32,829 bases of DNA, taken from positions 1 to 32,829 of the forward strand of contig JAHEBN010000028.1 of assembly GCA_024645245.1 (NCBI GenBank). The letters run 5' to 3'. The stretch's first letter is position 1; every line of letters starts with the position of its first letter. The notes beneath the pieces were generated by a model. It had not been told where the DNA came from and did not search any database. It worked only from the letters and a program-made list of their open reading frames with translations. Positions 3,734-6,867 of this stretch are shown piece by piece. This DNA comes from Jiulongibacter sp. GTDB taxonomy: Bacteria; Bacteroidota; Bacteroidia; Cytophagales; Spirosomataceae. Position numbers and translations under genes: made by a program.

Positions 3734-5088
3734 TTTTTCTTTTCTTTGGAGGACGAAATTCCTGTACCAGCCAGGTAGTATTCCGGTGGGAAACCATTAA
3801 TATTTCGCCATAATTCATAATAAATAGGTACATCTTTCAGCAAGGCAATACCATTGGCACCACCCCCGATTCGTAGCCTTTCGGGCCATTTATCCTCGGA
3901 CGTATCTTCAGCTACCAGTATTCGGAATTTACCATTCTGACTTACTGAAGTTTCTACTGCGGACACCACTCCACCAAAGGTACCAAAACTGCCATTTGGC
4001 CAGCCGCTGAAAATAATCGCAGGAAAGCCATCGAATACAAAACGCACTTTTTGACCGGCACTTACCAATGGTAAATCCATAGGTTCGATAAACAGTTCAA
4101 CCGCTTTTCCGCTCATTTGAGGTACGATTTCTGCAATCATTTCTCCTTCTTTAATCATTTCACCTATACCGGCTTTTCGGGCTTTGGTTATTTGTCCGCT
4201 CTGAGCGGCCGTTACAAAATACAATTGCTGGCGTGCATCGTAATTAGCCAATTGATTTTCCAACTTGTACACATCGGCCTCGGTACTGGTAGAAGCCGAA
4301 ATACTGCTGAATTTATCGCCCTCAGCCTTAGCAATCTTATCGGCATATTCCTGAACGGCACCGTTTTTCTCAATTTCCAGGTTTAGGAGTTCTTGTCTGT
4401 TTTGGTTAAGTTTGTTAGAATACGTGGTTACTTTGGCTTTCCCATCCTGAAAATTCACCCTTCTTTTTTCAAATTCAGTCAGTGAAATGGCACCGTTAAC
4501 AAGCATAGTTTGGGCAGCTTCAATTTGCCGGCTATAAGCCAATAGAGCATTATTTGCCGCAGCTAAATCGGCACTGTCACTGGAAATTTTCAATCTCTGT
4601 TGGTTTATTTTATTGTCCAATGATAGTAACTTTAGTCTGCGGGAGCTTTTTAGTGCCTCTATTTGTAAATCGGCTGTCGAAGCTTTTCCTTCATAGGCAT
4701 CTATGCTTTGTTTTTTTGCCTCTATTTGTTGGCGGGTTCTTTGAAGTAATATAGGATCAAAATATTCGACTTTTACCTCGCCTAGCTGTAAAATGGTATC
4801 GCCTTCTGCTACAAAATCACCCTCTTTCACGTGCCACTTCACGACACGCCCCGGTATAACGGTAGTTATTTCCTGCGGGCGATCTTCCTGCCTCAGTGTG
4901 GTTACATATCCTTTAGCCCGGATATTTTGCGTCCAGGGTAAAAAAGCCACAACCACACTGAAAATCAGCAGGCCATAGAACCAATATTTGAGTTTGCTTT
5001 TGCGATTAATCAGGTAAATATTACCAATGGACTCGTAATTATTTTTGTCCTTTAAATCTTCTAAGGTACTGTTTAAAAATGTTTTCAT
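3730..5088 (-). CDS. HlyD family periplasmic adaptor (membrane fusion protein)
   Basis: This 452-residue protein has a short cytoplasmic N-terminus, one membrane anchor (about residues 36-52, WFYGLLIFSVVVAFLPW) and a half biotinyl-lipoyl domain (about 77-105, VIPGRVVKWHVKEGDFVAEG). A long alpha-helical hairpin rich in Lys, Gln and Glu follows (about 110-270), then the second lipoyl half (ITKARKAGIGEMIKEGEMIAEIVP) and a beta-barrel segment. This is the standard HlyD/EmrA layout bridging an inner-membrane exporter to TolC. Its ATG shares one base with the stop of the ABC gene, and it overlaps the TolC gene by 4 nt, so the three are one operon. The substrate cannot be read. Confidence 0.92.
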   Translation of the reverse strand: MKTFLNSTLEDLKDKNNYESIGNIYLINRKSKLKYWFYGLLIFSVVVAFLPWTQNIRAKGYVTTLRQEDRPQEITTVIPGRVVKWHVKEGDFVAEGDTILQLGEVKVEYFDPILLQRTRQQIEAKKQSIDAYEGKASTADLQIEALKSSRRLKLLSLDNKINQQRLKISSDSADLAAANNALLAYSRQIEAAQTMLVNGAISLTEFEKRRVNFQDGKAKVTTYSNKLNQNRQELLNLEIEKNGAVQEYADKIAKAEGDKFSSISASTSTEADVYKLENQLANYDARQQLYFVTAAQSGQITKARKAGIGEMIKEGEMIAEIVPQMSGKAVELFIEPMDLPLVSAGQKVRFVFDGFPAIIFSGWPNGSFGTFGGVVSAVETSVSQNGKFRILVAEDTSEDKWPERLRIGGGANGIALLKDVPIYYELWRNINGFPPEYYLAGTGISSSKEKKK

Positions 5089-6749
5089 CAGATTTCGTTT
5101 TTAAGTTGAAGCGTGTGATTAAAATTGACCTGTCCAATGTTTTGGCTGCCTGTGATAATTACAGTGCTTCCTTTGGCTTTGATGTAATTAAGTACATTTT
5201 CCATTTCTTCCTTATTTAGATAACGGAAAGGCTCATCCAGTAGAATAAGAGCACTTTTACCGATCAAAGCACGGCTTAACAATATGCGATGTTTGGTAGA
5301 TGCAGGTAACCTTTTACCCAATGGATCGATAGAAGTTTCTAAACCTTTTTCGCTATTTTGAATGAAAGGCAAAAGGCCGGTTACACGAGCTATTTCCAGT
5401 ATTTCACCAGGTTTAATCCCGTTCTGGTCGAGGCAGATGTTTTTTTGCAAAGTTTCTTCAAAAATGTCCTGTTGGCCCATTAGAATTCCTGTTTGATTGC
5501 GAATCCAGGTGGTATCGTAGTTTTTTAATGGTAATCCATTTATAAGAATTTGTCCACTGAAATTTCGGAAAGCTCCACTCATTAATCTCAGAATCGTAGT
5601 TTTGCCTGATCCGGATTCACCACTTATGTGCATCCAATCACCCGGATTAAGGCGGAAATTTATTTCGGGCAACAGGTTTTGCTGGGCATGTAAATAATTG
5701 TATTTCACATTTCGGAATTCCATTTCAAATGCATCTGCCGTGTACACCGGATTATGACTTCCGCTTTCTTCCAGAGCGGCATTGGCCACTTTATTTAACT
5801 TTTCTACTGCTGTCAGAGCTTCATATACCTGATCCATATTTGTTATCAATTTTTCGATGGATGAAATTATAGAAATGATCACAATGTCGGATGCGATAAA
5901 CTGTCCAATGTTTATTTGCTGATTTACCAATAAGGATACACCCAATATTAGCATGGCCGCTGTAATCAATAGTTTAAAAGCAATCAGGCTCCAATATTGA
6001 ATTTTAAGAATACGGAAATGCTCATTTCTGGCTTGAAGAAAGCCTCCCGTGAGATTATCGGTTTTTTGTAAATGAAAACTGGCATTGCGGCTGTATTTGA
6101 AAGTTTTAATACTACGGGCCATCTCCTGAAGCCAGGCTGCAATCTTATATTTATAGTCACTTGTAAGTAAGGAAGTGCTGAAACCGGCATTGGAAGTATA
6201 GCGGATGATTAAAACCACTATCAATAGTAATACAATACCAAAGGCAATAAATAAAGGATGATAAAAGGATAGTAGAATAGTACCCAGCAAAATCTGGAAG
6301 ACTGCTGCCGGAATATCAATCAGAAGCTTCCGCAAGCTTTTTTGTAAAGTACTTATATCGAAAAAGCGATTTACCAATTCCGGAAGGTAATAGGCATCCA
6401 GTTTTTCAATATTTAAACCGGGAAGCCGGCGACCAAACTCCAGAGCATACCGTACAAATAGTTTTTGCTCCACTTTTTCGATTAACTCTAATTGCCTTAC
6501 CTGAAGCAGGCCATTAAAAAAAGTACCTACCAAAACCAGTGCGATTAAAATGATAATAGAGGTAGAAATAGAAGCCGCCATCACAAAACTAATGATGCTT
6601 TGTATTCCCAATGGTAACGAAAGTGAAAGTATTCCTGCAAAAATAGAATATAGATATATGGCTGATATGTCCTTATTATCAAGCTTTAATAAGTCCAAAA
6701 TCTTGCCTAATGCCTGACCAATATTGTTTTTTTCTTTCATGTATTTCAT
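5088..6749 (-). CDS. ABC exporter (membrane + ATPase fusion) with degenerate signature and H-loop
   Basis: The 553-residue half-transporter has several membrane helices over about residues 30-310 and a nucleotide-binding domain over about 340-553. There is no N-terminal C39 peptidase domain. Walker A is intact (GESGSGKTT, 377-385), a Q-loop glutamine is at about 426 (GILMGQQDIF), and Walker B with the catalytic acid is present (LILLDEP, Asp505-Glu506). The signature LSGGQ is replaced by LPAST (481-485), the D-loop by RYLN, and the H-loop histidine by Gly/Ser (IITGSQ, about 531-536). I recall similar 'LP-S' variants in other Bacteroidota exporters paired with HlyD and TolC, so this may be a lineage trait and not decay: the frame is intact. 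Transport coupling may be altered. The substrate is unknown. Confidence 0.88.
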   Translation of the reverse strand: MKYMKEKNNIGQALGKILDLLKLDNKDISAIYLYSIFAGILSLSLPLGIQSIISFVMAASISTSIIILIALVLVGTFFNGLLQVRQLELIEKVEQKLFVRYALEFGRRLPGLNIEKLDAYYLPELVNRFFDISTLQKSLRKLLIDIPAAVFQILLGTILLSFYHPLFIAFGIVLLLIVVLIIRYTSNAGFSTSLLTSDYKYKIAAWLQEMARSIKTFKYSRNASFHLQKTDNLTGGFLQARNEHFRILKIQYWSLIAFKLLITAAMLILGVSLLVNQQINIGQFIASDIVIISIISSIEKLITNMDQVYEALTAVEKLNKVANAALEESGSHNPVYTADAFEMEFRNVKYNYLHAQQNLLPEINFRLNPGDWMHISGESGSGKTTILRLMSGAFRNFSGQILINGLPLKNYDTTWIRNQTGILMGQQDIFEETLQKNICLDQNGIKPGEILEIARVTGLLPFIQNSEKGLETSIDPLGKRLPASTKHRILLSRALIGKSALILLDEPFRYLNKEEMENVLNYIKAKGSTVIITGSQNIGQVNFNHTLQLKNEI

Positions 6750-6760
6750 TCAAACTTTCG

Positions 6761-6768
6761 CAAATATA
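6761..6768 (-). promoter_or_regulatory. Candidate -7 promoter box for the ABC-HlyD-TolC operon
   Basis: On the minus strand this is TATATTTG, a full match to TAnnTTTG, 12 nt before the ABC start codon. No good -33 element is seen at the expected distance. A short leader and weak -33 suggest either activation or a tightly repressed promoter. Confidence 0.5.
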
Positions 6769-6786
6769 TAAATACTTTTAAATATA

Positions 6787-6799
6787 ATAGTAATACTAT
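6787..6799. promoter_or_regulatory. Palindromic candidate operator in the TetR/ABC spacer
   Basis: ATAGTA-A-TACTAT is a perfect 6-bp inverted repeat around one central base. It lies just upstream of the ABC-operon -7 box (around the -33 to -45 region) and between the divergent regulator and exporter genes. It is the best candidate site for the TetR protein encoded at 6868, but the region is very AT-rich, which raises the chance of random palindromes. Confidence 0.5.
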
Positions 6800-6803
6800 C
6801 AAA

Positions 6804-6833
6804 AATATTAATAAAAATTTTATTGTTAATATT
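6804..6833. promoter_or_regulatory. Second inverted repeat in the TetR/ABC spacer
   Basis: AATATTAA (6804-6811) and TTAATATT (6826-6833) form an 8-bp inverted repeat, with further partial A/T pairing inside. The element overlaps the region just upstream of the -7 box of the TetR gene. It could be a second operator or simply AT-rich promoter DNA. A direct repeat AATACTTTTA also occurs at 6771-6780 and 6834-6843, flanking the spacer. Confidence 0.35.
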
Positions 6834-6841
6834 AATACTTT

Positions 6842-6849
6842 TACATTTG
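6842..6849 (+). promoter_or_regulatory. Candidate -7 promoter box of the second TetR gene
   Basis: TACATTTG matches TAnnTTTG and lies 18 nt upstream of the ATG at 6868, giving a leader of roughly a dozen bases. The -33 region is T-rich with no clean TTTG. Confidence 0.5.
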
Positions 6850-6867
6850 CTTAATATTTAAAATTAG

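Follow-up and report, generated by a model that had tools for sequence, protein, structure and literature searches.

What drives a transporter of the ATP-binding cassette (ABC) type whose nucleotide-binding domain (NBD) is degenerate? The question is raised by a 32,829-nucleotide stretch of DNA from Jiulongibacter sp., a member of the Bacteroidota (GenBank assembly GCA_024645245.1, contig JAHEBN010000028.1, positions 1 to 32,829; hereafter, the window). On its minus strand, at positions 5088..6749, the window encodes a half-exporter of 553 residues, P0001, which is the first gene of an overlapping operon that continues with a HlyD-family adaptor and a TolC-family channel. An initial annotation had described P0001 as an exporter ATPase with intact Walker motifs that lacks the LSGGQ signature and the H-loop histidine, proposing either an uncharacterized branch of Bacteroidota exporters in which coupling to ATP is altered or a form in need of a partner ATPase. 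Comparing the protein with its relatives, we lean with moderate confidence towards a further-reaching explanation, according to which P0001 would belong to an ABC exporter lineage that is abandoning ATP hydrolysis and would now serve as the inner-membrane component of a tripartite, TetR-linked and ATP-independent exporter.

Judged from its sequence and predicted structure, P0001 has all parts of the type IV ABC exporter fold, a transmembrane domain (TMD) being followed by an NBD that is chemically incomplete. Its matches to PF00664 (34.9 bits) and PF00005 (66.2 bits) are both above the Pfam cut-offs, its AlphaFold2 model has a mean predicted local distance difference test score (pLDDT) of 91.8 and a predicted template modeling score (pTM) of 0.86, and Foldseek matches of the model, with query-normalized template modeling (TM) scores of 0.70-0.89 across the best 50 rows, include PCAT1, HlyB, MsbA and TM287/288, an exporter with one degenerate site. 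The TMD (residues 14-325; 5775..6710, minus strand, as for all P0001 features) comprises six long helices in the model and is the more conserved half of the protein in identity comparisons, and the degenerate NBD occupies residues 342-540 (5130..5726). As a motif reference we used 12 ABC exporters with ordinary motifs from the same genome set, six of them from the window's own genome. Aligned with these, P0001 has an intact Walker A (GESGSGKT, residues 377-384, 5598..5621; GESGSGKTT at 377-385) and an intact Walker B (LILLDE, residues 501-506, 5232..5249, with Asp505 and Glu506). The LSGGQ columns of the reference exporters fall on LPAST (residues 481-485, 5295..5309) and their H-loop histidine column on Ser535 (5145..5147); Walker B is followed by PFRYLN, with Asn512 in the column of the D-loop aspartate, and then by VIITGSQN. 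All residue numbers in the initial annotation (Walker A, LPAST and Glu506) hold on this open reading frame (ORF), its RYLN and IITGSQ are present as well, and the alignment agrees with the two losses it had described while adding one absent from its list, that of the Q-loop glutamine, whose column is occupied by Gly425. A canonical signature displaced to another part of the protein had been contemplated as well; the whole 553-residue sequence contains no LSGGQ elsewhere.

The abnormal signature and the non-histidine H-loop mark a large family, and by alignment catalytic decay is a property of that family. We scored seven catalytic elements (Walker A, Q-loop, signature, Walker B aspartate, catalytic glutamate, D-loop and H-loop) and found all seven in none of 158 family NBDs, as against 10 of the 12 canonical exporters, the other two of which keep six. 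The Q-loop glutamine is kept in 5/158, the serine and second glycine of the signature (SxG) in 8/158, the H-loop histidine in 15/158, the Walker B aspartate in 37/158, the catalytic glutamate in 65/158 and the D-loop aspartate in 32/158. These figures include one row (L164) identical to another (L119); a repeated row (L053, the same as L032) was dropped, and L138 is a fragment. The losses are graded, and the deep-branching members are closer to canonical exporters: 19 such members all keep Walker A and the Walker B aspartate, and 13 of them keep the histidine and none the Q-loop glutamine, while only two of the other 139 keep the histidine and none of them SxG. At the opposite end, among 18 hand-picked NBD-bearing members near a branch that lacks the NBD altogether, 12 keep none of the seven elements and none has the Walker A Ser/Thr. 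Both Mg ligands (Walker A Ser/Thr and Walker B Asp) are missing in 23/158, and at least one such double loss (L095) sits outside the neighborhood of the NBD-less branch. That P0001 might simply be a single decayed copy, with close homologues bearing LSGGQ and histidine, can be ruled out, because the three closest relatives found (L002-L004; 60, 58 and 56% identity) likewise lack the Q-loop glutamine, the signature and the H-loop histidine, and because the ratio of non-synonymous to synonymous substitution rates (dN/dS) of the NBD lies well below 1.

The family is widespread. Whole-genome searches covered the window's phylum together with the control genomes of the search tool. Relatives of P0001 at 34% identity or more occur in 50 of 59 genomes (the window's own plus relatives), the remaining nine yielding only weak general-ABC matches, and the exporter family is present in 193 of 222 genomes of the window's taxonomic family. 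A collection of named genomes contains at least 588 relatives among 596 stretches listed, and the 80 retained are mostly Bacteroidota by title; genera represented include Sediminibacterium, Ferruginibacter, Polaribacter, Chryseobacterium, Pedobacter, Maribacter and Aquirufa. Among the open-licence PubMed Central (PMC) matches listed, no title or abstract start describes this exporter family. The uncharacterized Bacteroidota branch of the initial annotation is supported, but the changed coupling attributed to it is probably too mild a description, because the whole NBD is gone from one branch of the family.

Sequence constraint on the two domains is the reverse of that in canonical exporters. 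Among 138 degenerate members, mean pairwise identity is 0.509 for the TMD but 0.333 for the NBD, and in none of 9453 pairs does the NBD have the higher identity; for the deep group of 19 the values are 0.475 and 0.416, with the NBD ahead in 58/171 pairs. Two control sets, composed of close homologues of two canonical exporters in the relatives and with TMD identity similar to that of the family, behave in the opposite manner: TMD 0.522 and NBD 0.723 in the first (30 sequences; NBD ahead in 430/435 pairs), and 0.539 and 0.629 in the second (17 sequences from 19 loci, with several copies per genome; NBD ahead in 127/136 pairs). The Q-loop glutamine, the Walker B DE pair and the H-loop histidine are intact in 30/30 and 17/17 of these controls. 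Both domains evolve under purifying selection. The dN/dS ratio of the TMD ranges from 0 to 0.107 (58 close pairs, 43 computable, many close pairs being saturated at synonymous sites), and it is higher for the NBD than for the TMD in 29 of the 30 pairs for which both are computable. The family NBD is therefore not junk, yet it is the relaxed half of the protein.

The decay reaches its end point in the NBD-less branch. Nine TMD-only matches from a first search, in open frames of 336-402 residues, together with four added by the phylum set, make up 13 loci. A profile of the NBD-less proteins matches 98 of 395 genomes of the phylum (95 of the 371 of good quality), and at least 81 NBD-less open frames of 334-424 residues (read by eye from the listing and then recounted, with lengths measured from stop to stop) are found in 78 of the 222 genomes, among the matches listed. 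PF00664 was the only Pfam match (E up to 0.001) in nine NBD-less proteins scanned. HlyD and TolC accompany the TMD gene at 13/13 loci and TetR at 7/13. The TMD stop codon overlaps the HlyD start by 8 nt at eight of these loci and by 11 nt at one, and precedes it by 32-66 nt at four, so that no NBD remnant fits between the two genes. A sequencing or frameshift artefact was rejected, because such frames are present in as many as 78 genomes and, at the 13 loci inspected, lead directly into HlyD. One genome (G031) has both a degenerate NBD-bearing and an NBD-less copy (L010, L039). Many relatives of about 700-840 residues bear an N-terminal extension of approximately 165 residues or more (e.g. L013:967-1440, plus strand; L018:3100-3540, minus strand; L148; L150), for which no Pfam match was found in five such proteins among six scanned. 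The NBD-less proteins start near the first transmembrane helix (TM1) and therefore lack this extension as well as the NBD, as if the two cytosolic domains had been lost together.

Two trees bear on the origin of the NBD-less proteins. A wide tree was built on 103 of 181 rows retained after thinning at 72% identity, which reduced the NBD-less rows from 13 to seven; these form one clade, with a support of 99 in the Shimodaira-Hasegawa-like approximate likelihood ratio test (SH-aLRT), inside a clade (SH-aLRT 100) shared with degenerate NBD-bearing rows. The second tree also contains 103 rows: 53 NBD-less sequences (those from the first loci and 40 further frames of the 81), 38 NBD-bearing neighbors and 12 others. 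All 53 NBD-less rows lie on one side of a single branch (SH-aLRT 100), and the 38 neighbors need two changes, and hence are not one clade by themselves. This pattern fits a single loss of the NBD, and rooting on canonical exporters suggests that decay preceded loss.

If no NBD acts on the NBD-less proteins, the surface on which it would dock may have been released from constraint. Coupling helix 2 is the docking place of the NBD; we assigned it by topology to the model helix 214-219 of P0001, between TM4 and TM5 (region 213-224; 6078..6113). The 53 NBD-less sequences were compared position by position with the 38 NBD-bearing neighbors, diversity being normalized within each set to the mean of that set. 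When 291 overlapping 16-residue windows are ranked by relaxation in the NBD-less set, the top 12 without exception fall within residues 209-236, forming one peak that covers coupling helix 2 and its surroundings. Excess diversity at 213-228 amounts to 0.75 (bootstrap 0.51-0.95); with the two sets thinned to 26/14, 17/11 and 10/7 sequences, it is 0.70, 0.56 and 0.49, respectively. Since coupling helix 2 is selectively relaxed, the comparison favors the absence of a docked NBD from these proteins, leaving the kept coupling helix 1 unexplained. The stretch of L031-L039 that aligns to P0001 residues 112-136, around and after coupling helix 1, is nearly invariant (consensus PPELMNRFFDVLT), even though these proteins have no NBD to which it could couple.

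These results can be assembled into a stepwise model, in which the family would have abandoned ATP hydrolysis and one of its branches would then have abandoned the ATPase domain itself. The sequences show that the Q-loop glutamine, the signature and the H-loop histidine are missing from most members, and the Walker B aspartate from many; that the relatives of the NBD-less branch are without the Walker A Mg ligand in addition; and that one branch has no NBD while retaining the TMD, HlyD and TolC. With its Walker A, Asp505 and Glu506 preserved, the window copy can probably still bind nucleotide; it would run no normal hydrolysis cycle, however, and its NBD would serve instead as a structural or regulatory domain. 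ATP hydrolysis is likely not the engine of the NBD-less branch, and probably not that of the window copy either. Less certainly, the TMD homodimer would be an alternating-access exporter that draws its energy from an ion gradient, in the simplest case the proton motive force, which drives SbmA; proton coupling is here a guess by analogy. Candidate coupling sites in P0001 would be Asp145, Lys259, Asp288 (Glu in most members), Glu299 and Lys300. The family conserves charges at these positions of the predicted helices (Asp/Glu at 145, Lys at 259, Glu/Asp at 288, Glu at 299 and Lys at 300), the same five columns are mixed in canonical exporters, and positions 145, 288 and 300 are invariant among the 53 NBD-less proteins; helix boundaries in the model would set the charges at membrane depth. 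Judging by the link to TetR, the substrate may be a small molecule or peptide whose efflux can be induced.

Several observations weigh against this model. P0001 itself keeps three of the seven catalytic elements (Walker A, the Walker B aspartate and the catalytic glutamate), and the Walker A lysine persists in 154/158 family NBDs, so that nucleotide binding or weak hydrolysis is possible. The NBDs remain under purifying selection (dN/dS 0.026-0.28; 51 NBD-bearing close pairs, 37 computable), and therefore do something. Two of the candidate coupling residues vary: NBD-less proteins have Lys in 35, Arg in 17 and Ser in one at position 259, and Glu in 31, Asp in 21 and Asn in one at position 299. 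Moreover, the conserved charges are already present in the deep members with nearer-canonical NBDs; they predate NBD decay and thus did not arise as a replacement engine, and they may serve substrate binding. Coupling helix 1 shows no relaxation in the 53 NBD-less sequences, which sets them apart from the SbmA-like peptide transporters (SLiPTs): these are described, in the available part of PMC13316013, as being without coupling helices, while the NBD-less members keep helix 1 and have helix 2 relaxed. Finally, both trees are quick reconstructions with long outgroup branches, those to the canonical outgroup in the first being very long.

The persistence of part of the active site also speaks for an alternative that we regard as unlikely, namely that the exporter is still driven by ATP through a rewired site, in which other residues replace the glutamine, LSGGQ and histidine and the homodimer hydrolyzes slowly. 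Besides the Walker A, Asp505 and Glu506 of the window copy and the selection acting on the NBD, it can draw on the catalytic glutamate, present in 15/16 members of a hand-picked close group, and on some short motifs seen repeatedly in place of the signature, FSxSF and LPxS among them. A rewired site is harder to reconcile with the columns themselves, since neither the Q-loop column nor the third signature column has settled on one replacement residue and the leading H-loop residue, asparagine, reaches only 76/158, or with an NBD that is the less conserved half in reversal of the control sets, the 23 NBDs devoid of both Mg ligands and the branch that has no NBD.

The NBD-less loci bring up a further possibility, which we hold to be quite improbable: the TMD protein might be a gated conduit or an anchor that seats HlyD and TolC, the substrate leaving down its own gradient or another pump being served. 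The joint retention of TMD, HlyD and TolC without an energy module at 13 loci is consistent with it, as is the candidate status of the coupled ion sites. Against it stands the strong constraint on the TMD, including its cytosolic helix extensions, which we would expect of an alternating-access transporter. The widely shared ORF clusters of the 13 neighborhoods correspond to the TMD, HlyD, TolC, TetR and several antisense-like frames of these, and no second pump was recognized among them, the smaller clusters being unannotated.

The partner ATPase of the initial annotation, which would be either a second ABC half-transporter or an NBD made separately from a gene at another place, is disfavored. 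In its favor, known degenerate-site exporters pair a degenerate with a canonical site (PMC7756269, available part), coupling helix 1 is still conserved in the NBD-less members, and ABC ATPases abound: the window's genome has 44 PF00005 matches, and the weaker matches in the nine first NBD-less genomes include free-standing frames of NBD size, so that a partner might act in trans. No consistent NBD gene was found beside the operon, a further ABC ATPase-like ORF occurring in the examined flank at 11/170 loci, in scattered places (the flank being only 1.5 kb at 30 loci). With this scatter, with the top matches to the P0001 NBD in the nine genomes lying in frames of whole-exporter size (about 590-790 residues, bar the paralogue of G031 itself) and no orphan family NBD seen there among the matches listed, with coupling helix 2 relaxed, and with at most 5/78 NBD-less genomes having a further family match able to carry an NBD, among the matches listed, a partner ATPase is decidedly improbable.

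ATP-independent export would have a precedent in SbmA. According to the available part of PMC13316013, SbmA is an NBD-less relative of ABC TMDs driven by protons through conserved glutamates, whose origin is called elusive and for which NBD loss from a YddA-like full-length ABC ancestor has been proposed; the accessible text of PMC12003926 has BclA and SbmA/BacA differing mainly in the ATPase domain. An ABC-exporter-type TMD without NBD, as in SbmA/BacA, is found in the NBD-less branch and not in the window copy. Neither P0001 nor the nine NBD-less proteins has any SbmA/BacA family match in Pfam, export would presumably proceed through HlyD and TolC, and relatives with decayed NBDs survive in this family. 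We put forward, tentatively and as somewhat less probable than not, that an ABC exporter driven by ATP has here, independently and for a second time, turned into a transporter driven by a gradient, in a tripartite HlyD-TolC exporter with living intermediates: a nearer-canonical NBD, an apparently dead NBD and no NBD.

The operon resembles type 1 secretion systems (HlyB, LssB or PrtD with HlyD and TolC) in combining an ABC half-transporter, HlyD and TolC, with HlyB among the closest folds and TIGR03375, TIGR01842 and TIGR01846 among the best NCBIfam matches. It differs from them in scores far under the curated cut-offs for P0001 (177.4/693.1, 156.2/510.15 and 145/725.55 bits, respectively), with 75.3/208.65 bits for the adaptor (TIGR01843) and 19.8/225.15 for the channel (TIGR01844), and in that P0001 lacks catalytic motifs and has no N-terminal domain before the TMD. 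CFTR and TAP also depart from catalytic motifs while retaining the domain, but their second site stays canonical (PMC7756269, available part); the operon described here encodes one half-transporter, so that a homodimer would contain no normal site. The available part of PMC11026475 contains no H-loop data. P0001 shares domain order and Pfam domains with canonical exporters from its own genome and from related ones, and its family departs from the 30 and 17 control sequences in the loss of catalytic residues that all of these keep and in the relative conservation of the NBD.

The genes around P0001 are arranged compactly. The HlyD-family periplasmic adaptor P0002 (3730..5088, minus strand; PF13437, 46.5 bits) starts with a 1-nt overlap of the ABC stop codon, and the TolC-family outer-membrane channel P0003 (2342..3733, minus strand; PF02321, 122.9 bits) overlaps the HlyD end by 4 nt, which bears out the tight coupling noted in the initial annotation. 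The TetR-family regulator P0008 (6868..7548, plus strand; PF00440, 37.4 bits) diverges from the operon, and similar TetR genes adjoin it in many other genomes. Among 156 loci other than the 13 NBD-less ones, HlyD clusters occur in at least 148, TolC in at least 117 and TetR in at least 66, these counts being lower bounds given the short flanks at many loci. The 118-bp gap between the ABC and TetR genes (6750-6867) is AT-rich and contains nested imperfect palindromes at 6790-6844 and 6804-6833, which plausibly constitute a candidate TetR operator. Boxes resembling TAnnTTTG, the Bacteroidota -7 motif, were read by eye in the gap at 6842-6849 (plus strand) and 6768-6761 (minus strand). Within the operon, promoter-like sites are about as frequent as in shuffled sequences (20 vs 18.0) and terminator-like sites fall below them (2 vs 6.0). 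Downstream of TolC come two small genes of the same orientation (1467-2329); the first encodes 106 residues with a weak likeness to CutA1 (20.5 bits, cut-off 22.4), and the 181-residue product of the other has no match in Pfam or NCBIfam.

How a primary, ATP-driven pump becomes a secondary pump is an open question, and the graded series seen here lies within one recurring Bacteroidota operon, so that each step can be assayed. The energized inner-membrane classes of tripartite exporters are given as ABC, resistance-nodulation-division (RND) and major facilitator superfamily (MFS) in the available part of PMC8277102; if our explanation is true, this family would provide a tripartite exporter class outside these three types. 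It also follows that a protein may score as an ATP-binding exporter without using ATP, and that finding an inner-membrane component of ABC type in one operon with HlyD and TolC is by itself no proof of ATP-driven export.

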